Assembly: GCF_003858635.1 (NCBI RefSeq)
Contig: NZ_RQJO01000008.1
Coordinates: forward strand, 1,178,001-1,242,000
DNA from: Larkinella rosea
GTDB taxonomy: Bacteria > Bacteroidota > Bacteroidia > Cytophagales > Spirosomataceae
Length of the DNA stretch: 64,000 nt
Direction of reading: 5' to 3'
A program made the translations under genes and the position numbers. The notes under the pieces are model-generated. The model had not been told where the DNA came from. It saw only the letters and a program-made list of their open reading frames with translations, and ran no database searches. How positions within the stretch are numbered: the stretch's first letter is position 1; every line of letters starts with the position of its first letter. Positions 10,697-49,261 of this stretch are shown one piece after another.

Positions 10697-12142
10697 ATGA
10701 AAAGAACCGTGCTTTATGTTGCGTTAAGCCAGTGCCTGCTCTGGTCGGCGGTGGCGCAAACGCCCAGGAAAACCGCGCCAAACCGGCCCGCTCCCAAACC
10801 GGCCGCAACGGTTTCGACGGCTCAAAAAGCCCCTGCTACCACACCAACCGAACAAACGACCGCGCGCATCAAATTCACCGAATACGACCTGCCGAATGGA
10901 CTGCATGTGATTCTGCATCAGGACAATACAACGCCACTGGTGGCCGTCACGATGATGTACCACGTGGGTTCGAAAAACGAACAACCGGGCCGGTCGGGAT
11001 TTGCGCACTTTTTCGAACACCTGATGTTTGAAGGCTCCGACAACATCAAGCGGGGCGAGTACATGAAGATTGTCAAAAGCGCGGGCGGGCAATTGAACGC
11101 CAATACCTCCAACGACCGGACGTTCTATTACGAACTGTTGCCTTCCAACAAACTCGAACTGGGTTTATACATGGAATCGGAGCGGCTTTTGCACGCCCGG
11201 GTAGACGAGAAAGGCGTTGAAACCCAGCGCGAAGTGGTGAAGGAAGAGCGTCGGCAGCGGTACGAAAACCAGCCTTACGGTAGCTTTTTTCCGCAGGTAT
11301 TGAGCCACGCGTTCAAGGTTCACCCGTATAAGTGGGCGCCCATCGGCTCGATGGAAGACCTGAATGCGGCTAAAATCGACGAGTTTCGCGATTTCTACAA
11401 GGAATTCTATATCCCGGGAAATGCCATTCTGTCGATTGCCGGTGACATCAATCCGGAAGACACGAAGAAGCTGATCGACAAGTATTTCGCCGAAATTCCG
11501 AAAGGAGCGAAAACGCCGTATCGGCCAAACGTGAAAGAACCGGTGCAGAAAGCCGAAGTTCGCGACATCGTGTACGACAATGTTTCGCTGCCGGGTGTAT
11601 TTCAGGCCTATCACATGCCCGCGCAGGGCGATCCGGATTACTACGCACTGGACGTGTTGCAAACCCTGCTGGCTGCGGGAGAAAGCTCCCGGATGAACAA
11701 GGAACTGGTTGATAAACAGCAAAAAGCCGTGCAAACCGGCGTGTTCCCCCTCTCGACCGAAGACCCCGGTTTGTTCATCTCGATTGGTATCGCCAACATG
11801 GGCGTGAAGGCGGAAGACCTGGAAGCGGGCATGAACGCGGAAATCGAAAAAGTGAAGAAAAACCTGGTGTCCGACGCCGAATTCCAGAAGGTGAAAAACC
11901 AGATCGAGACCAATTTCGTGAACCAGAACGCGGGCGTCGCCGGGATTGCCGAGAGTCTGGCGAATTACAAAATGTACCTGGGTGATGCCAACCTGATCAA
12001 CACGGAACTGGCGCGCTACAACAAAGTGACGAAGGAAGACCTGCGCCGGGTGGCCAACAAATACCTCACGAAAGAAAACCGGGTGGTTTTGTATTACCTG
12101 CCGAAGGCGATGGAACCGAAGAAAGAAGATAAGGGAAAGTGA
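10697..12142 (+). CDS. M16 zinc peptidase, catalytic subunit
   Basis: A 481-aa secreted insulinase-family peptidase with signal peptide (MKRTVLYVALSQCLLWSAVAQ) and a Pro/Ala/Thr-rich linker to about residue 55. The inverted zinc motif HxxEH is present as HFFEH at 104-108, and the distal Glu region is VETQREVVKEERRQRYE. This is the zinc-bearing member of the pair; the next gene lacks HxxEH. Such pairs act like mitochondrial processing peptidase beta and alpha: one cuts, the other supplies Arg/Tyr contacts. Expected to degrade or process peptides in the periplasm. The two genes are 94 bases apart, with a heptamer-repeat element in the gap. Confidence 0.85.
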   Translation: MKRTVLYVALSQCLLWSAVAQTPRKTAPNRPAPKPAATVSTAQKAPATTPTEQTTARIKFTEYDLPNGLHVILHQDNTTPLVAVTMMYHVGSKNEQPGRSGFAHFFEHLMFEGSDNIKRGEYMKIVKSAGGQLNANTSNDRTFYYELLPSNKLELGLYMESERLLHARVDEKGVETQREVVKEERRQRYENQPYGSFFPQVLSHAFKVHPYKWAPIGSMEDLNAAKIDEFRDFYKEFYIPGNAILSIAGDINPEDTKKLIDKYFAEIPKGAKTPYRPNVKEPVQKAEVRDIVYDNVSLPGVFQAYHMPAQGDPDYYALDVLQTLLAAGESSRMNKELVDKQQKAVQTGVFPLSTEDPGLFISIGIANMGVKAEDLEAGMNAEIEKVKKNLVSDAEFQKVKNQIETNFVNQNAGVAGIAESLANYKMYLGDANLINTELARYNKVTKEDLRRVANKYLTKENRVVLYYLPKAMEPKKEDKGK

Positions 12143-28936: not shown

Positions 28937-29626
28937 ATGAAATTCGGTGTAGTAGTATTTCCCGGCTCCAATTGTGACGACGACGCGGTTGACGCCCTGC
29001 GCGACCAACTGAAACAGAATGTCGTTAAACTCTGGCACAAAGACCACGACCTGCAAGGCTGCGATTTCATCATTCTGCCCGGCGGTTTTTCCTACGGCGA
29101 TTACCTGCGGACGGGTGCCGTGGCCCGGTTTTCTCCCATCATGAATGAGGTGATCAAACACGCCGAGCGGGGTGGTTATTTGATGGGAATCTGCAACGGT
29201 TTCCAGATTCTGGCCGAAGCGCGGCTGGTGCCGGGCGTTCTGCTGCGGAACACCAACCAGAAATACGTTTGCAAGAATATTTACCTCCGCCCGCAGTCGA
29301 AAAGCGTGTTGCTGACGGCCGGGCTGGACGAGAAAGCCTATAAAATTCCCATCGCCCACGGCGAGGGCCGGTATTTTGTCGATGCCGATACGCTGAATGA
29401 ACTGAACGACAACGATCAGATCATTTTCCGGTACTGCGACGAAGCCGGTAACATCACCGACGAAGCCAACCCGAACGGCAGTCTGGACAACATTGCGGGC
29501 GTGTCGAACGAACGCAAAAACGTGTTTGGCCTGATGCCCCACCCCGAACGGGCCGCCGATCCGCTGTTGGGCAACACCGACGGTCGGCTGATTCTGGAAC
29601 AGTTGCTGAATACGGTTTTGGTGTAA
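28937..29626 (+). CDS. purQ: Phosphoribosylformylglycinamidine synthase, glutaminase subunit
   Basis: A 229-aa class I glutamine amidotransferase supplying ammonia to PurL in purine biosynthesis. Signatures: FPGSNCDDDAVDAL at the N-terminus, ILPGGFSYGDYLRTGAVA, nucleophile elbow GICNGFQIL (Cys about residue 90), AHGEGRYF, and the His-Glu pair in MPHPERAADP. The small-subunit length shows the two-gene (PurQ plus PurL) form used outside proteobacteria. No purL is in the window. A perfect -7 box precedes it and an intrinsic terminator follows. Confidence 0.95.
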   Translation: MKFGVVVFPGSNCDDDAVDALRDQLKQNVVKLWHKDHDLQGCDFIILPGGFSYGDYLRTGAVARFSPIMNEVIKHAERGGYLMGICNGFQILAEARLVPGVLLRNTNQKYVCKNIYLRPQSKSVLLTAGLDEKAYKIPIAHGEGRYFVDADTLNELNDNDQIIFRYCDEAGNITDEANPNGSLDNIAGVSNERKNVFGLMPHPERAADPLLGNTDGRLILEQLLNTVLV

Positions 29627-29656
29627 GGTTAACTTCTGATAATTGAATACGGGAAG

Positions 29657-29680
29657 CCGGTCATTGTGACCGGTTTTTTT
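29657..29680 (+). terminator. Intrinsic terminator of purQ
   Basis: Stem CCGGTCA (29657-29663), loop TTG, TGACCGG (29667-29673), then seven T bases to 29680. It begins 31 bases after the purQ stop. Confidence 0.85.
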
Positions 29681-29838
29681 GTTTGGTGGCGTTTAAGGGA
29701 TCCGGTTTTTTGATTTAGGTTGCTTAACTATTTTTTGCTGAGGAATCCACTGATAATAGAAGTTTTGATGTGACTTTTTGATCCAGTCAACGTCTGACAA
29801 CTAGTACCAGCGTTGCAAATCCCGCAAACCGAACTCCG

Positions 29839-30354
29839 ATGGAACTGGTCATTAGTAACCTCAGCAAATCGTATCACCAGAAAACCGTGCTCGATGCCAT
29901 CAATCTGGCCTTTCAGGGTGGGGATGTGATTGGGTTGCTGGGCAAAAACGGATCGGGAAAAACCACGCTACTGAATTGACTGATCGACCTGATTGCTCCC
30001 GATAGCGGGCAATTCTTTTTCAACGGCGAAGAGTTAACGGGTGATCGGTTGGCATTTAAAATCGTTACGTTTCTACTGATTTTAAACGGCTTAATCCTTT
30101 CACTTCATAAAGTTTTTTACGTTCACAATAGCTTAAACTTTGGTCAGGTTAAGAATAATGTAAATGGCTGGAGTATTCTTTCAGCTTTTTGCTTAATTAT
30201 TCTGACGGCCCTGGCAGTAAAAACCGATATTTATACCTTGATACTGTGTTTTGTTTTAGCGGTTTTAGCCTGGTACTTATTTTATCGTTTTCTACCCGGA
30301 GATATAAGGGTTGTTCATCTAATTTATAAAAAATTGTTTATAGGTAATGAATAA
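29839..30354 (+). pseudogene. Broken ABC ATPase fragment running into a membrane-protein remnant
   Basis: From ATG 29839 the frame reads an ABC ATPase start (MELVISNLSKSYHQKTVLDA) through a complete Walker A (GKNGSGKTTLLN), then meets TGA at 29977-29979. In the same frame it continues (LIDLIAPDSGQFFFNGEELTG) to about 30050, then changes character: a three-TM sequence (ILNGLILSLHKVFY, WSILSAFCLIILTAL, TLILCFVLAVLAWYLFYRF) to TAA at 30354. No Q-loop, signature or Walker B follows. The base composition also drops at about 30050. I read this as a decayed ABC-2-type ATPase gene truncated at the edge of an AT-rich insertion and joined to an unrelated membrane-protein remnant. Confidence 0.65.
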
Positions 30355-30420
30355 ATAGAAAAAATAAAATGGTTAATGGGATGTATAAATGACTTAATTT
30401 TTACTTCTAAATCAATTTTT

Positions 30421-30546
30421 ATGAAAAACGAACCCACAGATGAAGAAATGAAAGAGTATGTATTCCTTTGTATTGTGCTGCTTACTATGCTTTCAGTGGA
30501 AATTCTGAAGTTATTCTTCGAAATGGGTAAAGGCTTTGCAAGGTGA
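30421..30546 (+). CDS. 41-aa single-TM small protein (first of three)
   Basis: ATG 30421 to TGA 30546. A charged N-terminus (MKNEPTDEEMKEY) leads into one hydrophobic span (VFLCIVLLTMLSVEILKLFF) and a short basic tail. It is the first of three consecutive mini-genes of 39-41 codons, each with one span, in the AT-rich island. No family known to me. It could be a toxic or immunity peptide, or a membrane modulator. Confidence 0.4.
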   Translation: MKNEPTDEEMKEYVFLCIVLLTMLSVEILKLFFEMGKGFAR

Positions 30547-30593
30547 TTTTATTGTTAAATTAAACTGTTAATACTAGACTTATTAATCGAATT

Positions 30594-30713
30594 ATGGATA
30601 AATACAGAAAAGGTAGTTTAATGGTGATGTTGGTGATACTATTGTTTTTATTCTTGCTTGAACTTTTCAGCTGGGGATTTAACTATGCTGAAGAGCGCTT
30701 GAATATGTTTTGA
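30594..30713 (+). CDS. 39-aa single-TM small protein (second of three)
   Basis: ATG 30594 to TGA 30713. Basic N-terminus (MDKYRKGS), then one long span (LMVMLVILLFLFLLELFSWGF) and NYAEERLNMF. 47 bases after the first mini-gene. The basic-hydrophobic-acidic order predicts N-in orientation. Function unknown; coding status rests on start, stop and the shared design with its neighbours. Confidence 0.4.
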   Translation: MDKYRKGSLMVMLVILLFLFLLELFSWGFNYAEERLNMF

Positions 30714-30743
30714 CTCAATGGTTTTCTTTCAAAAAAATAAATA

Positions 30744-30869
30744 ATGACGACGATGATTAGAATATACGAATCAATAAGGATGGATTTAAGTAATATTAAT
30801 TGGACTATTAACCAAATAGCCATACTAGTAATGGCTATCTGTTTTTTATTCTGTTATTGGGCGAATTAG
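30744..30869 (+). CDS. 41-aa single-TM small protein (third of three)
   Basis: ATG 30744 to TAG 30869. N-terminal polar half (MTTMIRIYESIRMDLSNINW), C-terminal span (IAILVMAICFLFCYW) ending in AN. It follows 30 bases after the second mini-gene. A possible inner start is Met13. Hairpins follow at 30930-30995. Confidence 0.4.
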   Translation: MTTMIRIYESIRMDLSNINWTINQIAILVMAICFLFCYWAN

Positions 30870-30929
30870 CTTACTACATTGATAGATATGTTGGGAAATG
30901 TTAATACTATCGTATAAAAATTTTGAAAA

Positions 30930-30995
30930 CCTTGTTTATGCTATCTAGATAACAAGGATTCACTAGCCAAATGATAAATTGGCTAATGAATCCTT
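30930..30995. terminator. Nested hairpins between the mini-genes and the XRE gene
   Basis: CCTTGTT (30930-30936) pairs with AACAAGG (30951-30957), and overlapping it a 17-base arm at 30954-30970 pairs with 30979-30995 (one mismatch, 8-base loop). The two stems share bases 30954-30957, so they are mutually exclusive, as in attenuator-like structures. No T-run follows. It lies between convergent genes. Confidence 0.5.
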
Positions 30996-31057
30996 GAAAC
31001 AATATAACGAATCAAAGAACATTTTTGGATAATAACTTCATTCCGTTTTCAACATAG

Positions 31058-31324
31058 TCATGTTACACCAAATCTCCTTTTAAATTGCTGACTGGTAACG
31101 GCCAGTTCTGTTAGTTGAGCAGTTTGTTTTGTCAGAAAGTCACCTTTTTCGATTCCATAGATATCGGCCAGCTTCTGCATCTTCTTAAGTGAGAGTTCAA
31201 TCTTTCCGCATTCCATTTGTGAATATGCCGATTGGGTGATGTCCAACTGAACGGCCAGGTAGTCCTGTGAATAGCCAAACAGATGACGCAAACGAAGCAT
31301 TTTGTCGGTTAAATCGGTTTTCAT
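31058..31324 (-). CDS. XRE-family helix-turn-helix regulator
   Basis: An 88-aa protein almost wholly made of one Cro/CI-type HTH: MLRLRHLFGYSQDYLAVQLDITQSAYSQMECGKIELSLKKMQKLADIYGI, then a short tail. Gln-x-x-x-Ala in helix 2 and Ser-Tyr-Ser-Gln-Met-Glu in helix 3 fit DNA binding. It is divergent from the peptide genes that start at 31603, so it is the likely regulator of that operon. More AT-rich than host genes but less than the CPBP region. Confidence 0.8.
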   Translation of the reverse strand: MKTDLTDKMLRLRHLFGYSQDYLAVQLDITQSAYSQMECGKIELSLKKMQKLADIYGIEKGDFLTKQTAQLTELAVTSQQFKRRFGVT

Positions 31325-31602
31325 GGTGTAGAGATAGAGATAGCTAAAGCGTTACTTTCTGTTATTTGACGAGTCTAAGTAAGAAAAGACACATAACTGT
31401 CTGATTATTTTTCCTGAGTTACAAAAAAAGTGCCTTTTAGCAATTTGCTCATAAAATGATAAGTTATATTTATTCTTTTATAAGTACTACTAATAGGGAC
31501 GTATTTGATTCCTGCTCATCTTTGTATCAACCAATTACCGCTGCTCGCCAGCCCGGGAGGAAGAGATGGCGTGGAGGTTGGGATAACTAAATATTCTTAC
31601 AA
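31325..31602. other. Divergent regulatory spacer of the peptide locus
   Basis: 278 bases, AT-rich, between the XRE gene and the first peptide gene. CATCTTTG at 31517-31524 is one base off the -7 consensus and is the best promoter candidate for the peptide operon. It is followed by a GC-richer leader (about 31541-31590) with a purine-rich stretch. No open frame of note. Confidence 0.4.
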
Positions 31603-31797
31603 ATGAAAAAGGAACTGAGCTTAAATCCTGAAATGCAGGAGATCACAGATAACGACCTGCGAGAAATTAATGGTGGCTATGGATATTGGGAAGGCCACAG
31701 TCAAGGTTCTGCGGCTGCGGGGAGTTTGTTTTGGAGTGCTACTGCAGAATTTTTAGCCACTGCATTGACTTCAATGGCTTCGTATCCTAGATTATAA
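31603..31797 (+). CDS. Double-glycine-leader peptide 1 (bacteriocin-like)
   Basis: A 64-aa precursor. Leader of 25 residues with the hydrophobic/acidic pattern (LSLNPEMQEITDNDLREINGG) ending in Gly24-Gly25, the cut site of C39 peptidases. The predicted 39-aa product starts YGYWEGHSQGSAAAGS and is Ala/Ser/Gly-rich with a hydrophobic face, as in class II bacteriocins. No cysteine, so it is not a lanthipeptide of the usual kind. Its start region is nearly identical to peptide 2. A C39-type exporter lies downstream in the same direction. Confidence 0.75.
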   Translation: MKKELSLNPEMQEITDNDLREINGGYGYWEGHSQGSAAAGSLFWSATAEFLATALTSMASYPRL

Positions 31798-31820
31798 TAA
31801 TTCTCAAAATATAAACAATA

Positions 31821-32045
31821 ATGAAAACAACTCAAGAAAACTTATTAGGCTTTGAATTGCAAGAAATCCAAAAGGTTGATCTGCGAGAAATCAATGGGGG
31901 CTATGGTTATTGGGAAGGGCATAACCAAGGATCTGCAGCTTTCTCGTCATTAGTTGCAAGTGCTTCGGTAGCGGTTGCAGGTGCTTGGAATGAGTTCTGC
32001 TCAGGTTTCAGCGATGGTTATTCTAATGCACGGCAAGGAAGGTAA
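31821..32045 (+). CDS. Double-glycine-leader peptide 2 (bacteriocin-like)
   Basis: A 74-aa precursor with leader ending Gly26-Gly27 (LGFELQEIQKVDLREINGG). The predicted 47-aa product begins YGYWEGHNQGSAA, matching peptide 1 with one change over 13 residues, then diverges (FSSLVASASVAVAGAWNEFCSGFSDGYSNARQGR), with one Cys. Peptides 1 and 2 clearly arose by duplication; the conserved N-terminal part of the products is unusual and suggests a shared receptor or partner contact. 23 bases after peptide 1. Confidence 0.75.
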   Translation: MKTTQENLLGFELQEIQKVDLREINGGYGYWEGHNQGSAAFSSLVASASVAVAGAWNEFCSGFSDGYSNARQGR

Positions 32046-32095
32046 AACAGCAATCATTCATAATCATTTTTACTAATTTTAATCCTATTTAAAAA

Positions 32096-32302
32096 ATGGA
32101 AAATCAACAATTATCCCAGTGGGGAATCAGTGAATTAGATTGCAAATCAATTTCAGAAATTGATGGTGGTAAATGGACTGAAGAACTTGGGTATATATGT
32201 GGAGAACTAGTCGGTCATGCTACAAATGCTGTAGAAATATTGAATCAAACATTGAAAGGGTTCGTTGAAGGTTTATTGTTTAGTAAAGCTACTGGCCGTT
32301 GA
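32096..32302 (+). CDS. Double-glycine-leader peptide 3 (bacteriocin-like)
   Basis: A 68-aa precursor. The leader (LSQWGISELDCKSISEIDGG) ends at Gly24-Gly25 and has the same Glu-Ile-(Asn/Asp)-Gly-Gly end as peptides 1 and 2. The predicted 43-aa product, KWTEELGYICGELVGHATNA..., is different from the others: amphipathic helical, one Cys. It could be the complementary partner of a two-peptide bacteriocin. 50 bases after peptide 2 and 52 before the CPBP gene. Confidence 0.7.
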   Translation: MENQQLSQWGISELDCKSISEIDGGKWTEELGYICGELVGHATNAVEILNQTLKGFVEGLLFSKATGR

Positions 32303-32354
32303 TAATTTTAACTGGTAGCTATTACATAATGGTTACCAGTTAACACAATGTATC

Positions 32355-33051
32355 ATGAAAAAAATTATATATATTACAACTCTATACTATGGTGATAGGT
32401 GTGTAGATAAATTTAAAAGTGTCACGATTGGTTTTTTTTTACATTATTTTTTTACTTTAATAAGTATAATATTAATCTTAATTATAGATAAGTCTTTTTT
32501 GCCATTAATTAATGTTGATTCTATCATAGAAAATCACCATAAAAGCTCGAGTGTGATAGAAGAACATGGTGTAAAAGTTGGTGCGATTATTGTAACAATA
32601 GCTGGGCCATTAATAGAAGAAATTTCATTTCGCCTTATTTTAAATCCTACAAAAAAAAAACATATCAATTTCATCTGTTACATTTTTTTTTCTTATTTCA
32701 GGGCCAATTTGGTATTTGAATGATTTTCCTTTTATTCGACTTATAATATGTGTATTTCTATATATTTTTTTGTATAAATTTTCTGATTTTATCTACAACA
32801 AATTGATTAGATTACAAAATAAATTATTGTTAATATTCACTTCTATAGGATTTGCCCTGCTGCATATTTTCAATTTTTCTCATTTTCAATTTTTTCTATT
32901 TCCAATATATTTAATATATATTTTACCTCAATTTTTTTTAGGCCTAATTCTAGGTATAGTAAGATTGAAAAATGGTTTTTTTTGGTCAGTACTACTTCAT
33001 ATTTTGATCAACGGTTCGGTAACCTGGCCCAAACTTTTTACACATGGTTAA
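32355..33051 (+). pseudogene. CPBP-family membrane protease, split by a frameshift in a T9 tract
   Basis: The first frame (32355-32723) has two spans and the CPBP/Abi motif 1 Glu-Glu-x-x-x-Arg in GPLIEEISFRLIL. The second frame (from about 32683 to 33051) carries motif 2 FALLHIFNFSHF and motif 3 LLHILING (HxxxN). The frames meet at nine T bases, 32683-32691; eight T would give a continuous reading (CYIFFLISGPIWYLNDF). A ten-A tract at 32651-32660 is a second slip site. CPBP proteins in bacteriocin loci serve as immunity or leader-processing membrane proteases. The end overlaps the HlyD start by eight bases. Very AT-rich. Confidence 0.7.
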
Positions 33052-34213
33052 CACATCACTAATTGGCCATGAACTGCTCGTTTATTTACCTCGCGTCACC
33101 GTCCGCAGCCAACTTCTATACACTGCTGTTTTATTTGCAATCACCGCAGCCATTGCCGCCCTGCCATTCATTTACGTCGATGTCTCCGTTCAGGCATCCG
33201 GTTTGATTCGCCCGGTGGCGGAGCGAAGTGAAGTGAAAACGACAACTGGCGGGACGGTAGCGGTTTTGTGGATACGCGAAAATCAGGTAGTACGGGCCGG
33301 TCAGCCGTTGATGCGGTTGCAAACCGAAATTCTGGATACGAAACTCCGTCTGGTGACGGCTCAACAGGCCGAAAAGCGAATGTACATCCGTGATCTGCAA
33401 CAATTAACCCGGTTGACAGATACCCAATTGGTATCGGCTACCGGATTAATTTCTCCCCTCTATCGCCAACAATACGAACAGTTTCGCTACCTGGCGCAGG
33501 AAAACCTGCAAACCCAGCAGAAACGCCAACGCGAACTGGACGTAAACCGGCAACTTTATGTCGATAAAGTCATTCCCCGGCTGGAGCTTGAAGACAAAGA
33601 ATTTGTGTACAAAACCGTCGTGGCTCAATACCGGACGCTGGTCGAACGCCAGCGAAGTGAATGGCAAACCGCTTTGTCCGAACATCGTTTGGCATTGACC
33701 GATTTAATGGGTCAGGAACGGCAACTCAAACAGGAACAGGCTTTCTCCACGATCAAAGCGCCCGTGGGCGGCACCATTAGTCAGCTTTCCGGTCGATACG
33801 TTGGCAGTTTCGTGCAGGCCGGAGAAATTGTCGGTACGATTTCGCCTGATTCTACCCTGATTATCGAATGTTATGCCACGCCAAAAGACATTGGATTGCT
33901 GCAGATTGGTCAAAAAGCGCACTTTCAAATTGCGGCATTCAATTACAATCAATGGGGTTTGCTGGAAGGCCTGATACTGGATGTTGCCAATGATTTTATT
34001 CTGGTCGAAAACCAGCCGGTGTTTAAAGTCCGCTGTCGGCTTAATCGAAATTTTCTGACCCTGAAAAACGGCTATCGAGGATACCTGAAAAAGGGAATGA
34101 CGGTTCAGGCCCGGTTTATCGTTACGCGCCGGTCGTTGTTCGAATTACTTTACGATAAAGCCGACGACTGGCTAAATCCAGTGAACCAACCTGTCGCCAG
34201 TCGCTTACGGTAG
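33044..34213 (+). CDS. HlyD-family membrane fusion protein (peptide export)
   Basis: A 389-aa adaptor. One N-terminal span (TAVLFAITAAIAALPFIYV), then the first half of the lipoyl/barrel-sandwich domain (VQASGLIRPVAERSEVKTTTGGTVAVLWIRENQVVRAGQPLMRL), a long alpha-hairpin (about 90-230), the second lipoyl half (FSTIKAPVGGTISQLSGRYVGSFVQAGEIVGTI) and a beta-barrel. It links the inner-membrane C39 exporter with an outer-membrane channel; no TolC gene is seen here. It overlaps the CPBP gene by eight bases and the exporter follows 25 bases later. Base composition returns abruptly to host-like here. Confidence 0.87.
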   Translation: MVNTSLIGHELLVYLPRVTVRSQLLYTAVLFAITAAIAALPFIYVDVSVQASGLIRPVAERSEVKTTTGGTVAVLWIRENQVVRAGQPLMRLQTEILDTKLRLVTAQQAEKRMYIRDLQQLTRLTDTQLVSATGLISPLYRQQYEQFRYLAQENLQTQQKRQRELDVNRQLYVDKVIPRLELEDKEFVYKTVVAQYRTLVERQRSEWQTALSEHRLALTDLMGQERQLKQEQAFSTIKAPVGGTISQLSGRYVGSFVQAGEIVGTISPDSTLIIECYATPKDIGLLQIGQKAHFQIAAFNYNQWGLLEGLILDVANDFILVENQPVFKVRCRLNRNFLTLKNGYRGYLKKGMTVQARFIVTRRSLFELLYDKADDWLNPVNQPVASRLR

Positions 34214-34238
34214 GCACTTGCCGCCAACAGAATACACC

Positions 34239-36395
34239 ATGAAAAGCCGAGTTAAAGTTAAACAGCGTGACATTACCGACTGTGGAGCGGCATGTCTGGC
34301 ATCCGTAGCCGCCCACCACCGGTTGTTGCTACCTGTAGCGCGCATCCGGCAGATGGCGTCTACGGATCAGAAAGGAACCAATGTTCTGGGGTTGATTGAA
34401 GCGGCTCAGAAACTGGGGTTTCAGGCCAAAGGGGTGAAAGGACCCTTTGAAAGTCTCTATAAAATCCCCAAACCGGCCATTGCCCATGTGGTAGTAAAAG
34501 GTGTTTTACAGCACTATGTGGTGATTTATGACGTGACTCCAAAGCACCTCGTCATCATGGACCCTGGTGATGGGTTGATTCACAAAAAGACGCACGACGA
34601 ATTTAAACAGGAGTGGACGGGTGTTCTGGTTTTGCTGCTACCGGATGAGACGTTCCAAACGGGTAATTCCAAAGCTTCGGTTTTGCAGCGTTTCGGGCAA
34701 CTGCTTCGTCCGCACCGGGCGGTTTTGGCACAGGCGTTATTTGGGGCTGTTATCTATACCTTGCTGGGGTTGACTACGTCAATTTATGTGCAGAAAATTG
34801 TTGACAATGTGTTGCCGGAAGCCAACCAGAACTTGCTGAATCTGCTTAGTGTAGTGATGATTGTACTGTTGCTGTTGCAATTGTTTATCGGCACCGTCAA
34901 GAGTTTCTTCAATTTCAAAACCGGCCAGCGTATGGATGCGGCTTTGATTCTAGGCTATTATAAGCACCTGCTCAAATTACCACAATCTTTTTTTGACAGC
35001 ATGCGGGTTGGCGAAATTGTCTCGCGCATTAACGATGCCGTTAAAATCCGGGCGTTTATCAACGATACGGCTCTCAATCTGATTGTCAACGTATTGATTA
35101 TGTTTTTCTCGTTCGCGTTGATGTTTACTTACTATTGGAAACTGGCGTTAATCCTGTTGCTGGTTATTCCAATGTATACGTTGCTGTATTGGATTACGAA
35201 CCGCGTCAACCGGAAAAACCAGCGTCGGCTGATGGAAGATTCTGCCGAACTGGAATCACAACTGGTCGAATCGCTGAACGCCATGTCGACAATCAAACGG
35301 TTTGGCCTGGAAGAATATGCAGGTTACAAAACGGAGACGCGGTTTGTCAAATTGCTGCAAACGATCTTCCGGTCGGGCAGCAGCGCCATTTACGTTGGAA
35401 GCATTTCGGAACTGATTTCCCGGTTATTCACCATTATTTTGTTGTGGGTAGGCGGTTGGTTTGTACTGCACAATGAAATTACACCCGGTGAGTTATTGTC
35501 GTTTTATGCCTTGATTGGCTATTTTACAAGTCCGGCAGCTAGTTTGGTGGGCGCGAACCGCACCGTTCAGGACGCGTTGATTGCTGCCGATCGGTTGTTC
35601 GAAATCATGGATCTTGAACACGAAACGTCCGATAATACAGTTGTTCTTAAGCCCGAAATGATTGGTGCCGTTTCTTTCCGAAATGTTTCTTTTCGCTACG
35701 GTTCCCGCGTGACGGTTTTTGATGATTTGACATTAACTATTCAGGCCGGAAAAATTACTGCCATTGTAGGCGAAAGCGGTTCCGGTAAGTCGACATTGCT
35801 TTCCCTTTTGCAGGGGCTTTATCCGTTGCAAAAAGGTAGCATTCATATTGGCAATTTCGATATAAAACACATCCAGACCGCCAGTTTGCGCCAGGTGGTC
35901 AGTGTCGTGCCTCAGAAAATTGATCTTTTTGCCGGAAATGTCATCGATAATATTGCATTAGGTGAACCGGAGCCGAACATGCAACACATTTTGAGCATTT
36001 GCCAGCAATTGGGAATCTCTGACTTCATTGAAAAACTGCCGAACGGTTTCCACACGTATTTAGGCGAAAACGGAGCAATGTTGTCAGGGGGGCAAAAGCA
36101 ACGAATTGCCATCGCCCGTGCTCTGTATCGAAATCCTGAAATATTAATTTTTGATGAGGCTACCTCGGCTCTCGATTCGGTTTCGGAGCAATACGTTCAA
36201 CAAACGATTCACAACCTGCGTGATGCCGGAAAAACCATTATCATCATTGCTCACCGGCTCAGCACCGTTCGTCAGGCCGATAGAATTCTGGTGTTGGAAA
36301 ACGGGAAATTAATTGAAGAAGGCACGCATTTCGAATTACTGAGAGACGGAAAAACATACCATCACTTCTGGCAGCAGCAAACGGAATATAATTGA
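34239..36395 (+). CDS. Peptidase-containing ABC exporter (C39 PCAT)
   Basis: A 718-aa three-part exporter. Residues 1-135 are a C39 peptidase: Gln9 and Cys15 (KQRDITDCGAAC), His92 (LQHYVVI) and Asp108 (MDPGDG), all catalytic positions present. Residues ~155-450 are the six-span exporter domain. The ATPase has Walker A GESGSGKST, signature LSGGQKQRIAIARA, Walker B ILIFDEATSALD. It should cut the three Gly-Gly leaders encoded upstream and export the products with the HlyD protein. ATG 34239 is used; a TTG seven codons earlier is weaker. Convergent with the BNR gene, three bases apart. Confidence 0.92.
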   Translation: MKSRVKVKQRDITDCGAACLASVAAHHRLLLPVARIRQMASTDQKGTNVLGLIEAAQKLGFQAKGVKGPFESLYKIPKPAIAHVVVKGVLQHYVVIYDVTPKHLVIMDPGDGLIHKKTHDEFKQEWTGVLVLLLPDETFQTGNSKASVLQRFGQLLRPHRAVLAQALFGAVIYTLLGLTTSIYVQKIVDNVLPEANQNLLNLLSVVMIVLLLLQLFIGTVKSFFNFKTGQRMDAALILGYYKHLLKLPQSFFDSMRVGEIVSRINDAVKIRAFINDTALNLIVNVLIMFFSFALMFTYYWKLALILLLVIPMYTLLYWITNRVNRKNQRRLMEDSAELESQLVESLNAMSTIKRFGLEEYAGYKTETRFVKLLQTIFRSGSSAIYVGSISELISRLFTIILLWVGGWFVLHNEITPGELLSFYALIGYFTSPAASLVGANRTVQDALIAADRLFEIMDLEHETSDNTVVLKPEMIGAVSFRNVSFRYGSRVTVFDDLTLTIQAGKITAIVGESGSGKSTLLSLLQGLYPLQKGSIHIGNFDIKHIQTASLRQVVSVVPQKIDLFAGNVIDNIALGEPEPNMQHILSICQQLGISDFIEKLPNGFHTYLGENGAMLSGGQKQRIAIARALYRNPEILIFDEATSALDSVSEQYVQQTIHNLRDAGKTIIIIAHRLSTVRQADRILVLENGKLIEEGTHFELLRDGKTYHHFWQQQTEYN

Positions 36396-36398
36396 CTT

Positions 36399-37463
36399 TT
36401 ACAACCCAACCCGCCCCACCATCACCTGCCCGTCCAATTCCCAAACACACCAGGCGGTTTTTCCGGCTACGGCAAGGCTCGGCATCTGGCCTTTACCGAC
36501 CGACACGGGTGACTGACTCCCCGATTTAATCCAAACCGTGCCACCTTCGTCCCAGGCCAGCAGCGGTTTGTCCGAATTGGCGGCTGCGGTCACATTCCGG
36601 CCCGTCGAAACCGGCTGCTCCGTTTCGCCCGGCACGCAGGTGTAGAGCGTATTTTCGCGTCGCCAGGCGGTGAGGGGCTGACCGGTTTTTGAGAGGACGA
36701 CCGCTCCACCGTCCATGGGGCAGGCGTTTAATTTCCAGGTTCCGGTTCCCAGCTTTTGGGCCGGTTGGTAGGTCTTTCCGCCGTCGGCGGAATGGGCCAG
36801 GTACAAATTTCGGGAGCCGTCGAGCCAGTTGCGAAACTGGACATACACATCGTTTTTGGTTGCAGCGATGGAAACTTTACAGCATTCGCAGACTGTGCCG
36901 TCGGGCGAGCGGTAGATTACCTGATTGGTCGACCAGCTTCGCCCGCCATCCCGGGAGGTTGCACCAACAATTTTATTCTTTTTATCTCCGCGAAGATCCA
37001 GCCAGGCGGCATGGAATAGGCCCTTCGACGCGCCCGCTACGGCTTGAAAACCTTCTTTGGCAATTTGTGGCACGTCGTTGATGCGAATGCCGGACGACCA
37101 TCGCCCACTTTTTCGGTCGAGTGAATACGCAAAAATATCTCCCGCTTTATTGACCGCACTGACGACAACAAACTGATCGGTAACCGCGATTTGCGGCCCC
37201 CGTTTGGCACTGGCTACCAGATTCGGCAAAACCGCTACCATAACGGGCGGACTAAACGTGGCTTTCCTGCCGGATGAGGTTGCATAATAAAGGGTAGAAT
37301 CCTGTCCGAAAGTCATGTGCAGTGTTCCGTTTGTTTCGGACACCACAACCGGCAAATGGCCGGATGCCATTTTCTGACCGGAATCCACGGATTGGCCATT
37401 TGCCCAAACGATACCGAATTGAAAAAGAAGGTAAAGGGCGTAACGTCTGACAAAACTGTCCAT
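36399..37463 (-). CDS. BNR-repeat (sialidase-fold) protein with CxCC motif, second copy
   Basis: A 354-aa secreted propeller (signal YALYLLFQFGIVWANGQ), paralogous to the 20293 protein. Asp boxes: SRDGGRSWSTN, SADGGKTYQPA. The CxCC motif is GTVCECCKVSIAATKN, and WKLNACPMDGGAVV matches WKVNACPHTGP of the other copy. One His of the first copy is replaced here (ACPM versus ACPH). No sialidase Arg triad can be assigned. It stands alone with its own promoter, so it may answer to a different signal from the copper-cluster copy. Confidence 0.68.
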   Translation of the reverse strand: MDSFVRRYALYLLFQFGIVWANGQSVDSGQKMASGHLPVVVSETNGTLHMTFGQDSTLYYATSSGRKATFSPPVMVAVLPNLVASAKRGPQIAVTDQFVVVSAVNKAGDIFAYSLDRKSGRWSSGIRINDVPQIAKEGFQAVAGASKGLFHAAWLDLRGDKKNKIVGATSRDGGRSWSTNQVIYRSPDGTVCECCKVSIAATKNDVYVQFRNWLDGSRNLYLAHSADGGKTYQPAQKLGTGTWKLNACPMDGGAVVLSKTGQPLTAWRRENTLYTCVPGETEQPVSTGRNVTAAANSDKPLLAWDEGGTVWIKSGSQSPVSVGKGQMPSLAVAGKTAWCVWELDGQVMVGRVGL

Positions 37464-40407: not shown

Positions 40408-43400
40408 TTACTTGTTGATGATCAGGCGTTGAGTCAACTGTTTGTCGGCGGTTTTCAACTGCACGAAATGAAGACCGGCCGCATGCTGGCTTAGGTCGAC
40501 CGTTTCGTGCTGCACCTGGCCGGTACCGACCACGTTTTGCTGCCACGTAACCCGGCCCAGCACATCCACCACCTGCAAGGTCGCGGTTTTCTGAGCTTCT
40601 AACCGGAAGCTGGCAATGGTCCGTCCACTGCTGGGGTTTGGACTTACCGTCAGTTCCGAACTCAGTTCAGGATCGGCAACACCTTCGCGACCACCACTGG
40701 GGCAGGTCAGCGTTTTGGGACCCCATTTCAGCGTATAATTGCCTCCCGGTACGCGGGCATTCAGACTGTGCGCCTTGCCATCTTTGAGTGCGGTAGGAAC
40801 CGTAAAGCTGTAGCCGTGAATACCGTTGCCTTTTCCGGCATTTTTCAAATCCTGCCGGAAAATATTCGCATCCGTAGTTGCAACGACGGTAGTCCCTTCG
40901 ACAAGCTCAAGCGAGATGACGGTATTGGGGCGGTTTTGATCCCAGACCCAGCCGGTAATCGCGTTACAGGCAACTACGTCCAGGAAGCCTTCGTAATTGC
41001 CCGGGCCGTTGCCTGTGCTTCCTCCGCTGGCGTTAACCGTCAGTGCAAAGGTCATGGAAACCGGCGAGTGCTGATTGTCCGTAGCCGAGTAGGTTAGCGT
41101 GAACGTACCACTGACCGTCGGCGTTCCGGAAATCACCCGGGTGCCGGCATTGAAATTCAAGCCATTGGGTAAACCCGATAAGGTATACGTCAACGGATCG
41201 TTTTCGGCGTCGGTGAAGACCGGCAATGCACTGGCCGTAAAGGCTACATTGATCGTGGCCGACAGGGGCGAAACCGCCGGAGCAACCGGAGCTGCGTTGG
41301 TCGGTGTTCCACCCGCAGCTACCGTGAGCGTGACGGACGTATTGGTTTTGTTCTGCGAATCAGCCGCCGAGTAGGTCAGCGTAAAGGTGCCCTGCTGCGT
41401 GGGCGTTCCCGAAATCACCCGGGTGCTGGCGTTGAAACTCAAGCCACTGGGCAAACCGGTCAGCGAGTACGACAGCGGTTCGGTATCGGTGAACGCTGGC
41501 AGAGCTGCGGAAGTATACGCCACATTAATCGTTGCCGACAGAGCCGAAACCGAGGGCGCCACCGGTGCCGGATTGGATGGAACCCCACTACCCGGACAGT
41601 TGATGAACGTAGGCTGACCTGCCGAAAACTTCAGTACGAACAACGATCCCTGAACCCGTCCCCAGATGGTGTGATTCTGTCCATCTTTCAGGCTTTCCGG
41701 AACGGGGAAGTCAAACCAGTGAATACCATTTCCTTTGCCCGCATCCACTAAATGCTGCTTGAAGACATTCGCAGCAATGGTTCCCAATGGGGTACCTGCA
41801 TCAATGGAAGGTCCTTCAAACAGTTCGACGTTGACGACCGCATTTCCTCGGTCGCGTTCCCAGGCCCAACCCGACAGCGTATTACAATTGATGACCAGAT
41901 AACCGTCGTAATTGGCCGCCGGAGCAGGTGGAGTAGACGTTCCGCCCGCTGCCACCGTGAGGGTGACGGATGCGTTGACTTTGGTCTGCGAATCAGCCGC
42001 CGAGTAAGTCAGCGTAAAGGTACCCTGCTGCGTGGGTGTTCCCGAAATGACGCGGGTGCTGGCGTTGAAATTCAAGCCGCTGGGCAAACCGGTCAGCGAG
42101 TACGACAACGGTTCCGTATCCGTGAAGGCCGGGAGCGCCACTGACTGATAAGCCACATTGACTGTTGCCGACAAGGGCGAAACCGTCGGAGCGACCGGGG
42201 GTGGATTCGGCGTTGCACCCGCATTCACCGTGAGCGTGATGGATGCGTTGACTTTGCTTTGCGAATCGGCGGCCGAGTAGGTCAGCGTAAAGGTCCCCTG
42301 TTGTGTCGGCGTTCCCGAAATGACGCGGGTGTTGGCGTCGAAAGTCAATCCACTGGGTAAACCGGTGAGCGAGTACGACAACGGTTCCGTATCCGTGAAG
42401 GCCGGAAGTGCCGCTGACTGATAAGCCACATTGACCGTTGCCGACAAAGGCGAAACCGTTGGCGCTACCGGAGGATCGTTAACCGGAGGTGCCGTATTGG
42501 AAATAACAAAGGTCACCAGGGCCGAAGCGGTTTTTCCTTTTGGATCGGTCACGATCAGACTCATGGTATACGTTCCCAGCGTGGTGGGCGTACCGCTGAT
42601 GGTCCGGCTGGTTGGCGAATAGTCCAGCCCCGGCACCGAGCCGTTAAGCGCGTAGGTTAAGTCACCGTTTTCGGTATCCGTAAACTCGGGAATCACATAG
42701 GAGGTTGCAACGTTGACCTCCCGGTTCAGGATGGGAATAGCCGGACCGGTGGGTGGCTGATTGCTCGGATCTACCGGCAGCGGGCTTCCATCTCCCGGGC
42801 AGTTCAGCGTTTTCGGCGAACCGATCAGTTCGTACGAAGTACCCTGAATGCGCATTCCGATGCTGTGATTCTGGCCGTCTTTCAGCGTTGCCGGAATAAT
42901 CCAGGAATAACCGTGTTGTCCGTTTCCAATCTGAGCACTGACCAGGTCGGGGCGGGCCAGAGAAGCGGTTATTGTGGCAATCAGATTGTCATTATCCCGA
43001 ATTTCAATATTCAGGGGCGTATTGGGTTGATTGGCATCCCATACCCATCCGAAAATATCACCTTTGCAATTAATGACATCCAGGAATCCTTCATAAGCCC
43101 CGACGGGTGGTGTTACCACACTGGTAACCGTTAATGTAAGGGTCACAGAAACCGGCGAACTCCGGTTGTCGGTAGCCGAATAGGTTAATGTAAATGGACC
43201 TTGCTGCGTCGGTGTGCCGGAAATCACCCGGGAGTTGACGTCGAAAGTTAACCCATTGGGTAACCCGCTGAGCGAGTACGTCAACGGATCGTTGTCGGCA
43301 TCGGTGAAGACGGGCAACGCACTGGCCGTGAAAGCCACATTGACCGTTGCCGACAGGGGCGAAACCGCCGGAGCGACCGGTGCGGCATTCGTCGGTGTGG

Positions 43401-46400
43401 GAGCCGCATTGACCGTCAGCGTAATGGATGAATTGACTTTGGTCTGTGAATCAGCCGCTGAGTAGGTCAGCGTAAAGGTGCCCTGTTGCGTGGGTGTTCC
43501 CGAAATCACCCGCGTATTGGCGTTGAAATTCAAGCCACTGGGTAAACCGGTCAGCGAGTACGACAGTGGTTCAGTATCGGTAAAGGCTGGGAGGGCCGCC
43601 GAGGTGTAAGCCGCATTGACCGTTGCCGACAGGGGTGAAACCGTTGGGGCAACCGGCGCCGGGTTGGTCGGAACCCCACTGCCCGGGCAGTTGATGAAGG
43701 TAGGTTGACCGGCGATAAATTTCAGCACGAATTCCGATCCTACCACGCGTCCCCAGATGATGTGGTTCTGGCCATCCTTGATGGATTCCGGAACCGGGAA
43801 ATCATACCCGTGCACACCATTACCTTTGCCCGCATTCAATAAATCCTGCCGGAAAATGTTAGCCGCCACCGTACCAATGAGCGTACCCGCATCAATGGAA
43901 GGTCCATCGAAGAACTCGACGCTAACGACCGCATTTCCATTGGCGCGTTCCCAGGCCCAACCCGTGAAACTGCCGCAACTGAGGGTGATGTAACCGTCAT
44001 AATTAGCGGCCGGAGCCCGTGGGGTTGTACTGCTGGCAACCACCGCAAGGATAACGGACAGATTGGTTTTATTCTGCGAATCAGCCGCTGAGTAGGTCAG
44101 CGTAAAGGTGCCCTGTTGCGTGGGTGTTCCCGAAATCACCCGCGTATTGGCGTTAAAGTTCAAGCCGCTGGGTAAACCGGTCAGCGAGTACGACAACGGT
44201 TCGCTATCGGTGAAAGCCGGGAGGGCCGCAGATGTATACGCTACGTTAATCGTTGCCGACAAAGGCGAAACCGTGGGAGCGACCGGCGCCGGATTGGATG
44301 GGGTACTGCCTGCATTCACCGTAAGCGTAACCGACAGGTCGGTTTTGTTCTGCGAATCAGCGGCCGAATACGTTAGTGTGAAAGTGCCCTGCTGGGTTGG
44401 TGTTCCCGAAATCACCCGGGTGCTGGCGTTGAAAGTCAAGCCGCTGGGTAAACCGGTCAGCGAGTACGACAACGGTTCGGTATCGGTGAAGACCGGGAGG
44501 GCCGCAGACGTATACGCTACGTTGACCGTTGCCGACAGGGGCGAAACCGCCGGAGGGACCGGTGGTGGATTGCTACCCGCGCCGACGGTCAGCGTGACAG
44601 ACAGATTGGTTTTATTCTGCGAATCAGCCGCCGAGTAGGTCAGCGTAAAGGTGCCTTGCTGGGTCGGTGTTCCCGAAATCACCCGCGTGCTGGCGTTGAA
44701 AGTCAAGCCGCTGGGCAAACCGGTCAGGGAGTACGACAGCGGTTCGGTATCGGTGAATGCCGGGAGGGCCGCAGACGTATAGGCCGCGTTGACCGTTGCC
44801 GACAGGGGTGATACCGTTGGCGCGACCGGGCCGGGGTTGCCGGTGCCCGCGCAGGTGAGCGTCTTGGGCGACCACATCAGTACGTAAGTCGATCCCTGGA
44901 CCTTGCCCCAGATGGTTTGCTGCTGGTTGGTTTTGACGCTGTTGGGAACCGTGAAGCTGTAGCCGTGAGCGCCGTTGCCTTTGCCCGCATTCACCAGATC
45001 CTGCCGGAAAATATTGGCTACCGTCGTACCAACCGAAACCGCCGACTCGATGCCCGGATTGCTACCCGTTGCGGCCAGAAACTCGACCGTGTAAGGATCG
45101 TTCGGTTTATCGTAATTGAAGACCCAACCCGAAATGGTGTTACAATTGACCTGATCCAGATACCCTTCGAAATTGCCCGTTACGACCGGTCCCGTTCCGC
45201 CCGCAGCCACGGTGAGCGTGACGGACAGGTCGGTTTTTTTCTGTGAATCGGCGGCCGAATACGTTAGTGTGAAAGTGCCCTGCTGGGTCGGTGTTCCCGA
45301 AATCACCCGCGTGCTGGCGTTGAAAGTCAAGCCGCTGGGTAAACCGGTCAGCGAGTACGACAACGGTTCGGTATCGGTGAAGGCCGGAAGGGCCGCCGAA
45401 GCGTAAGCTACATTGACCGTTGCCGTTAAAGGCGAAACCGTTGGCGCGACTGGCCCCGGATTGGATGGCGTGCCACCGGCTGCTACCGTGAGGGTGACAG
45501 ACAGATTGGTTTTATTCTGCGAATCAGCCGCCGAGTAGGTCAGCGTAAAGGTGCCTTGCTGCGTGGGTGTTCCCGAAATCACCCGCGTGCTGGCGTTGAA
45601 AGTCAAGCCGCTGGGCAGACCGGTCAGTGAGTACGACAACGGTTCGGTATCGGTGAAGACCGGGAGGGCCGCAGACGTATACGCTACATTGACCGTTGCC
45701 GACAGGGGCGAAACCGCTGGCGCGACCGGGCCGGGGTTGCCGGTGCCCGCGCAGGTGAGCGTCTTGGGCGACCACATCAGTACGTAAGTCGATCCCTGGA
45801 CCTTGCCCCAGATGGTTTGTTGCTGGTTGGTTTTGACGCTGTTGGGAACCGTGAAGCTGTAGCCGTGAGCGCCGTTGCCTTTGCCCGCATTCATCAGATC
45901 CTGCCGGAAAATATTGGCTACCGTCGTACCAACCGAAACCGCCGACTCGATGCCCGGATTGTTACCCGTTGCGGCCAGAAACTCGACCGTGTAAGGATCG
46001 TTCGGTTTATCGTAATTGAAGACCCAACCCGAAATGGTGTTACAATTGACCTGATCCAGATACCCTTCGAAATTGCCCGTTACAACTGCAACACTGGTAA
46101 CGGTCAGTGTAAAGGTCATACTGACCGCCGGATTTCGGTTGTCAGTGGCGGTATAGGTTAGGGTGTACGTAGCGGTCTGGGTTGGCGTTCCGCTAATCAC
46201 CCGCGTGCTCGCATTGAAGCTCAGGGTTGCGGGCAAACCGCTCAGCGAATACGTCAGCGCATCGCCATCCGGATCGGTAAAGGGCACCAGAGGATTCGAC
46301 GTGAAGCTGGTATTGACTGTCGTTGTCAAACCTGCTATGGAAGGTGCCGTAGGTGCTACATTGACCGGTGGCGTACTGGTTCCCGTAGTTGTTCCGGTGG

Positions 46401-48945: not shown

Positions 48946-49261
48946 AAGATCGATTTTACTTAAACATGTCATTCAGCGCAGACCGTACTTCACGGCAACA
49001 AAACAGGATAGGATGGGAACAACCTATTTCAGGCGATAAAAAGGAATTACTAGCCGAAGTACCGTATATTTATCCCTGAAATTTCGAATTATACAGGGGA
49101 ATCTTGTCGGAAATATAGGAAAAATCCAAATGTTTTCAATGATTTAGTAGTCAGAATTTACTAAACGGAAGACTTAAAGGTGTGAGAATCAAAGAAATTG
49201 GTAACATGTGTTCTCTTCATACGTTGCAAAAAAATTATTTAAAGGGCTCAATTGGTTCTGA
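48946..49261. other. Divergent spacer between giant 1 and ispE
   Basis: About 316 AT-rich bases. It must hold promoters for both genes, but no exact TAnnTTTG box was found in a sensible position. No open frame. Confidence 0.4.

Follow-up and report, generated by a model that had tools for sequence, protein, structure and literature searches.

Here, we analysed a 64-kb stretch of DNA of Larkinella rosea (NZ_RQJO01000008.1; hereafter the window, whose positions serve as coordinates below), which contains a predicted locus for the production and export of small peptides. In plus-strand order, it consists of three open reading frames (ORFs) with double-glycine (GG) leaders, a CPBP-type gene, a HlyD adaptor gene and the gene of an exporter in which a C39 peptidase domain is joined to ABC membrane and ATPase domains. 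With a probability of roughly 65%, we regard it as an unmodified multi-peptide bacteriocin locus of a class IIb-like kind, in which Larkinella combines a fixed exporter with exchangeable cargo. The genes and features are:

31058-31324, minus strand: XRE (HTH_3) regulator, divergent from the operon (PF01381, E = 4.3e-10)
31528-31583, plus strand: conserved 5' leader element, bounding the exchanged stretches to its left and right
31603-31797, plus strand: GG-leader precursor 1, 64 amino acids (leader 25, predicted core 39)
31821-32045, plus strand: GG-leader precursor 2, 74 amino acids (leader 27, predicted core 47)
32096-32302, plus strand: GG-leader precursor 3, 68 amino acids (leader 25, predicted core 43 with GxxxGxxxG)
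32355-32723, plus strand: CPBP protein, first piece, with the EEISFR motif (PF02517, E = 0.019, below the cut-off)
32716-33051, plus strand: CPBP protein, second piece in another frame, with the FALLH and HILIN motifs (PF02517, E = 1.1e-5)
33044-34213, plus strand: HlyD-type membrane fusion adaptor (PF13437, E = 1.1e-14)
34239-36395, plus strand: C39 peptidase-containing ABC exporter (TIGR01193, 549.5 bits; cut-off 523.85)

A previous sequence-only reading of the window had described these genes as a complete route to make, cut, export and protect under an XRE regulator. Much of this stood: the regulator, the adaptor, the exporter with all its catalytic residues and three GG-leader precursors with predicted products of 39, 47 and 43 residues were recovered as described, and the steps of making, cutting and exporting are backed by the anatomy of the locus and by its relatives. 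The attribute 'complete' and the intact CPBP membrane protease had to be given up, since the CPBP gene is split into two frames as assembled.

The precursors and their exporter

The three GG leaders are unlikely to have arisen by chance, because none of 2000 Markov shuffles of the interval between the XRE and HlyD genes (31326-33043) gave three GG ORFs; two were found in 3 shuffles and one in 49. Precursors 1 and 2 have the block NGGYGYWEGHxQGSAA in common, which spans the leader into the core, and GxxxG motifs are present in all three cores. The cores contain 0, 1 and 1 Cys, respectively, and the single Cys of precursors 2 and 3 is conserved in L. knui (G004), a sister species; a disulfide bond between these two peptides is conceivable. 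Precursor 3 is nearly unchanged in L. knui (65 of 68 residues identical; ratio of nonsynonymous to synonymous substitution, dN/dS, 0.05), while precursors 1 and 2 change faster (dN/dS 0.31 and 0.25). Precursors of this type were found in only two of 222 genomes of the family. A profile of precursors 1 and 2, searched at E ≤ 0.001 against 390 genomes of the order, a sample that evidently lacks L. knui as it gave no row from that genome, matched the window's own genome and one other (G074), the latter weakly (E = 4.9e-4) and inside a 363-amino-acid open frame.

The exporter aligns over nearly its full length with the structure of PCAT1 (4RY2; E = 3.4e-168), and its C15, H92, D108 and Q9 line up with the catalytic residues of that protein; we take C15, H92, D108 and the oxyanion Gln (Q9) to be catalytic here as well. 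Walker A, LSGGQ, Walker B and H-loop motifs are also in place. In L. knui, 660 of 718 exporter residues and 335 of 389 adaptor residues are identical (dN/dS 0.044 and 0.095), and the start of the HlyD gene overlaps the end of the CPBP gene by 8 bases in both genomes. The L. rosea genome has 55 matches to the OEP (TolC-type) domain.

The CPBP (CAAX/Rce1-like) motifs EExxxR, FxxxH and HxxxN are divided between the two pieces in the window and lie in a single frame in G007, another Larkinella genome, and in L. knui, which has an unbroken homologue of 231 amino acids (L008:9887-10582). Separate comparisons with L. knui show signs of constraint in both pieces (dN/dS of 0.29 over codons 1-98, 0.19 in the second piece), so either the break happened recently or it is not real. 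Each of the five homopolymer runs of at least 8 bases in the window lies inside this gene (32432-32983), one of them near the frame change. The break, close to an A run at 32651-32660, may stem from a genuine mutation, from slippage or from an error of sequencing, and the runs make one of the latter two causes plausible. We gave little weight to the idea that the CPBP protein is a second maturation protease: nothing that we found supports it, the C39 domain should suffice, and the available part of a description of the pneumococcal blp locus (PMC4860687) lists its CAAX (CPBP) proteins among the putative immunity genes.

The same site in nine Larkinella genomes

We compared the site in nine Larkinella genomes, including L. 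knui, L. humicola (G002) and L. punicea (G005). To its right lie a BNR-repeat (sialidase-like) gene and an OmpA-family gene, and to its left most relatives have a gene for a putative lipoprotein of 234 amino acids without a Pfam match, to which the window's genome has no match. L. knui carries the same three precursors as the window: DNA likeness starts at 31528 and runs through the exporter, whereas the upstream XRE genes differ (28% protein identity over 53 amino acids only). L. humicola and L. knui, in turn, are alike in the XRE gene, the promoter and the leader element (83% over 580 bases), after which L. humicola has two other GG precursors (the second recognised by eye, as the leader pattern had missed it), a 41-amino-acid membrane protein and a different CPBP gene. 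Set against the window, L. humicola shows nothing alike between the 56-base element and position 33002 and is alike from there through the exporter; the final codons of a CPBP gene of the window type persist before its HlyD gene as a scar. In L. punicea, a CPBP piece at the start of a contig is followed by another GG precursor and other genes before HlyD, and the exporter gene aligns over its full length. As L. humicola and L. punicea thus carry the same exporter at the same site together with unrelated precursors, the comparison suggests that the exporter stays in place and the cargo is exchanged. Among the cargo genes of L. punicea is also one (L048:1419-2735) for a 438-amino-acid protein that has an HEEGH motif and matches nothing in Pfam.

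G007 has a CPBP gene and three small membrane protein genes (families B, C and A, described below), all on a single contig and flanked by the lipoprotein and BNR genes; neither precursors nor an exporter were found at the site, and its whole genome gave no HlyD match at E ≤ 1e-40. The only hit of the leader scan there is the family C gene itself, through an AG pattern in its membrane helix, which we took as spurious. This makes G007 a candidate immunity-only strain. G008 has a family C gene and one 34-amino-acid ORF between the lipoprotein and BNR genes. In G006, an XRE gene, one GG precursor and two CPBP-type ORFs lie beside the lipoprotein gene, with no exporter at the site and the best HlyD match (57%) on another contig. 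G001 and G003 gave no BNR gene match at E ≤ 1e-40, and alignments put their lipoprotein-OmpA spacing at about 160 and 224 bases.

The leader element is 89% identical between the window and L. humicola over 56 bases with differing flanks, and it is the one stretch that is kept when either the right-hand cargo (L. humicola against L. knui) or the left-hand regulator (window against L. knui) differs. A scan of the nine genomes for its 18-base core found sites with at most one mismatch only in the window, L. knui and L. humicola. Rfam searches of 29600-36600 returned one weak match (E = 0.73) and none for the element, and folding compared with shuffles (z-scores of 0.54, 0.07 and -0.57) gave no sign of a structured RNA. 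Scans for sigma-70 promoters and terminators yielded 12 and 4 sites, compared with 10.5 and 5.7 in shuffles. With three sequences at hand, the element may be a joint aiding exchange, or else a 5' untranslated leader whose place between modules is coincidental; inspection by eye also left a coding role conceivable. A further mark of rearrangement may be a copy of 90-170 bases of the BNR gene 3' end, found left of the cargo genes in L. knui, L. humicola and L. punicea, which suggests a past insertion or a duplication with the target end repeated. These direct copies lie at:

L008, about 11825-11917
L047, 8668-8759
L048, 725-893

Small membrane proteins beside the cassette

Three small genes to the left of the regulator were already recognised as mini-proteins from the window; they match gene families A, B and C of the relatives, the third being shortened compared with the copies in G007 and L. 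punicea:

30421-30546, plus strand: small single-helix membrane protein, family A (41 amino acids), a candidate immunity gene left of the cassette
30594-30713, plus strand: small membrane protein, family B (39 amino acids), a candidate immunity gene, with a hydrophobic segment of Kyte-Doolittle (KD) value 2.67
30744-30869, plus strand: small membrane protein of family C, shortened in comparison with its copies in G007, L. punicea and G008

Homologues of family A occur in 5 of the 222 family genomes, all of them Larkinella; the protein is modelled as one helix (residues 7-40, mean pLDDT 90), and in L. humicola its homologue sits between the precursors and the CPBP gene. In distant pairs of family A, dN lies below dS. 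Family B has no Pfam match and was linked, through its position and a weak similarity judged by eye, to a G007 gene (L185:1657-1839) and to the L. punicea copy. The family C gene of the window, which matches G008 at 79% over 67 nucleotides, is probably not intact. In L. punicea, another contig, which we took as adjacent, ends with genes B, C and A.

From such findings, one could argue that the locus is decaying, i.e. that the exporter is intact but this strain has lost a working gene for immunity or maturation and no longer uses the system. A CPBP gene in two frames and a shortened family C gene fit this explanation, as do two fragments close by, one of an ABC ATPase (29839-29979) and another at 30049-30354. 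Disuse nevertheless appears rather unlikely to us: precursors, adaptor and exporter are all open with dN/dS values of 0.04-0.31 against L. knui, the two CPBP pieces show comparable constraint (0.29 and 0.19), and the homopolymer runs offer a plausible sequencing or slippage cause for the break. The two fragments themselves, a 46-amino-acid piece of an ABC ATPase (PF00005) and a 101-amino-acid ORF resembling part of larger ORFs (339 to 472 amino acids) elsewhere in five relatives, are possibly debris of an ABC transporter beside the cassette.

The wider exporter family

Relatives of the HlyD adaptor (E ≤ 1e-40) are present in 76 of the 222 family genomes and in 16 of 36 genera. We collected 42 exporter loci, namely the window, the L. 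knui locus (L008) and 40 regions mostly from the top of the list of HlyD relatives, with several genomes giving two loci. They contain 97 GG ORFs on the exporter strand and 4 on the opposite strand, 4.65 being expected from shuffles, and at least one GG ORF is present in 29 of the 42. GxxxG motifs occur in 50 of 92 related cores, a set that contains a few spurious ORFs and related sequences, compared with a shuffled mean of 22.9; none of 1000 shuffles reached 50. For comparison with family models, we removed 16 of 95 distinct GG ORFs, either near copies (in L069, L070, L071 and L072) or probably spurious, added two sequences and shifted one start, resulting in 81 related precursors. At E ≤ 0.05, 37 of these match the class IIb model TIGR03949 (best 5.6e-7) and 26 match PF10439. 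CPBP matches were obtained for 14 of 56 ORFs from the exporter-side (cargo) regions and same-site relatives, the 56 being what remained of 59 ORFs of at least 95 amino acids after 7 had been left out (flanking, overlapping or unrelated) and 4 added. One of the loci, putatively of Dyadobacter diqingensis, contains five tandem, nearly identical GG precursors (L069:126-947).

A working model and its alternatives

GxxxG-containing cores of class IIb bacteriocins are known to pair in the target membrane. Following this precedent, precursor 3 together with precursor 1 and/or 2 would form a two-part peptide, whose GxxxG-rich cores would pair in the membrane of close relatives. Before that, the C39 domain would bind the leader of each precursor and cut after Gly-Gly during export, and HlyD together with one of the TolC-type channels of the genome would carry the peptides out; leader binding, cleavage and this route are transferred from systems with peptidase-containing ABC transporters (PCATs), as described in the available part of PMC10233263. 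The XRE protein would regulate the divergent promoter. Immunity would be conferred by the CPBP protein and/or the small single-helix proteins, for which G007, having these genes at a site without precursors or exporter, offers the best support. Protection, as claimed for the locus before, thus finds indirect support in the company that CPBP and small membrane proteins keep with precursors and in the fact that G007 has only these at the site. An arms race between producers and resistant non-producers would account both for the exchange of cargo and for a relative with only candidate immunity genes at the site.

Several observations weigh against this bacteriocin model. None of the window precursors matches a curated family over its cut-off: the best scores are 15.1 bits for PF10439 (cut-off 27.1), 14.7 for TIGR01847 (15.7) and 11.4 for TIGR03949 (21.5), and precursor 3 matches none of these three models. 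The leader-pattern scan found no GG ORF in 13 of the 42 exporter loci, so that some exporter relatives may serve other substrates, or peptides that escape the pattern. In close pairs of family A, dN is near dS (0.11/0.09 for L. punicea and L. knui, 0.13/0.19 for G007 and L. punicea) and constraint is not visible there. The HlyD gene of L. punicea is in two frames, the split CPBP gene of the window may mean that one candidate immunity gene is dead, and the candidate immunity-only strain is represented by a single genome, assembled in 310 contigs. Cleavage, killing and immunity are predictions from sequence.

The main functional rival is a signalling locus, in which relatives would sense the exported peptides as pheromones and the XRE protein would end the regulatory loop. 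GG leaders and C39 exporters do serve pheromones, such as ComC and BlpC, as well. At E ≤ 0.05, the BlpC model picks up 5 and the ComC model 6 of the 81 related precursors, perhaps via their leaders, and precursor 3 is almost invariant between two species. But why should a signalling locus hold several dissimilar peptides, exchange them between relatives jointly with CPBP and small membrane genes, and leave behind in one relative (G007) nothing at the site except CPBP and small membrane genes? Together with the lack of a sensor kinase or receptor gene in 31058-36395, these points render signalling improbable. The earlier proposal of an antimicrobial or signalling system can thus be narrowed, and we favour an antimicrobial role, because the interval encodes no receptor or kinase and because the cargo differs together with the candidate immunity genes; the kind of system is a known one. 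Modification of the peptides by a tailoring enzyme encoded elsewhere, as in ribosomally synthesised and post-translationally modified peptides (RiPPs), is highly unlikely, given that no modification enzyme was seen among the ORFs of the window locus or the same site of L. knui and L. humicola and that the cores have 0, 1 and 1 Cys, even if 6 of the 81 related precursors match the radical S-adenosylmethionine (rSAM)-target model TIGR04149 and 3 a class I lanthipeptide leader model (E ≤ 0.05), a LanB/LanC/C39 locus exists elsewhere in the genome (L207), and RiPP clusters with C39 transporters are reported from Bacteroidales in the accessible part of PMC10352776. A defence or phage origin was dropped, since PADLOC matched only the XRE protein and the exporter, which we took as generic, and no precursor had a match in PHROGs.

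The bacteriocin model can be taken one step further. Larkinella might maintain a standing exchange site, at which interchangeable killing cassettes recombine at the 5' leader element and non-producers keep a growing archive of immunity genes. This extension is tentative and we would sooner bet against it, yet if true, the pneumococcal blp region would have a counterpart in Gram-negative bacteria, whose three-peptide cargo is new.

Relation to known systems

According to the available part of its description (PMC4860687), the blp locus combines an ABC exporter, peptides predicted to pair, putative immunity genes that include those for CAAX proteases and short membrane proteins, and strain-variable cargo, with full-length exporter genes in only 23.5% of genomes; in these respects it resembles the locus described here. 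In contrast, blp is Gram-positive and its operon includes a quorum-sensing receptor and a response regulator, where the window has a divergent XRE gene, and the window peptides match no blp model over the cut-off. With class II microcins such as microcin V, as far as covered by the accessible text of PMC10233263, the locus shares the Gram-negative background, the GG precursor, a small membrane immunity protein (here a candidate) and a membrane fusion protein (MFP) and PCAT encoded beside the precursor, with TolC coming from elsewhere (55 OEP matches here). Their leaders of 15-18 and cores of 60-90 amino acids differ from the 25-27 and 39-47 found here, as do the three precursors and the CPBP gene of the window.

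Bacteroidetocins likewise stem from Bacteroidota and are GG-leader peptides of about 42 amino acids with an ABC transporter carrying a double-glycine peptidase domain. In the part of the report available (PMC6671954), they have leaders of 15-16 amino acids, at least two Cys (four in the first two studied), a five-transmembrane protein, mostly a thiol oxidoreductase and no obvious immunity gene. Here, the leaders have 25-27 amino acids and the cores 0, 1 and 1 Cys, HlyD and CPBP are present, and no thiol oxidoreductase was found among the locus proteins scanned. A further likeness is to class IIb bacteriocins of the lactobin A/cerein 7B type (TIGR03949), given GxxxG cores and the 37 of 81 related precursors matching at E ≤ 0.05, while the window's own precursors stay below the cut-off. 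The former statement that the products match no bacteriocin is therefore true of these three sequences, which exceed no family cut-off, match nothing in PHROGs and found no solved structure below E = 0.2, but not of their kind.

On account of these lengths, features and scores, we file the locus neither under blp nor under class II microcins, although on our reading it works like both. New are the peptides and the modular site, of a class IIb-like type, in Bacteroidota. The kind itself is not new, because the available part of PMC12648078 predicts class II bacteriocins in all parts of the bacterial tree and in Bacteroidota as well. Among the titles listed by our literature search, none concerned this locus, most subscription papers being beyond its reach.

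What the nine genomes offer is a view of one place in several states: one type of producer that occurs in two genomes, other types with swapped cargo, a strain that is a candidate for immunity only, and cassette-free sites. Candidate bacteriocin-immunity pairs thereby become directly testable in environmental Bacteroidota, which is of interest as no immunity gene is obvious for the bacteroidetocins studied by experiment, according to the accessible part of PMC6671954. The peptides are small and linear and thus open to synthesis.

Further observations

Elsewhere in the same genome, L207 (G000:C17:282500-293500) is a separate class I lanthipeptide-type locus with a lantibiotic dehydratase (1060 amino acids, PF04738/PF14028), a LanC-like protein (PF05147), a second C39 exporter and a HlyD-like protein. 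On the minus strand of the window, 40408-48972 is an open frame of 2854 amino acids with many similar repeated segments, by eye perhaps a large surface protein.

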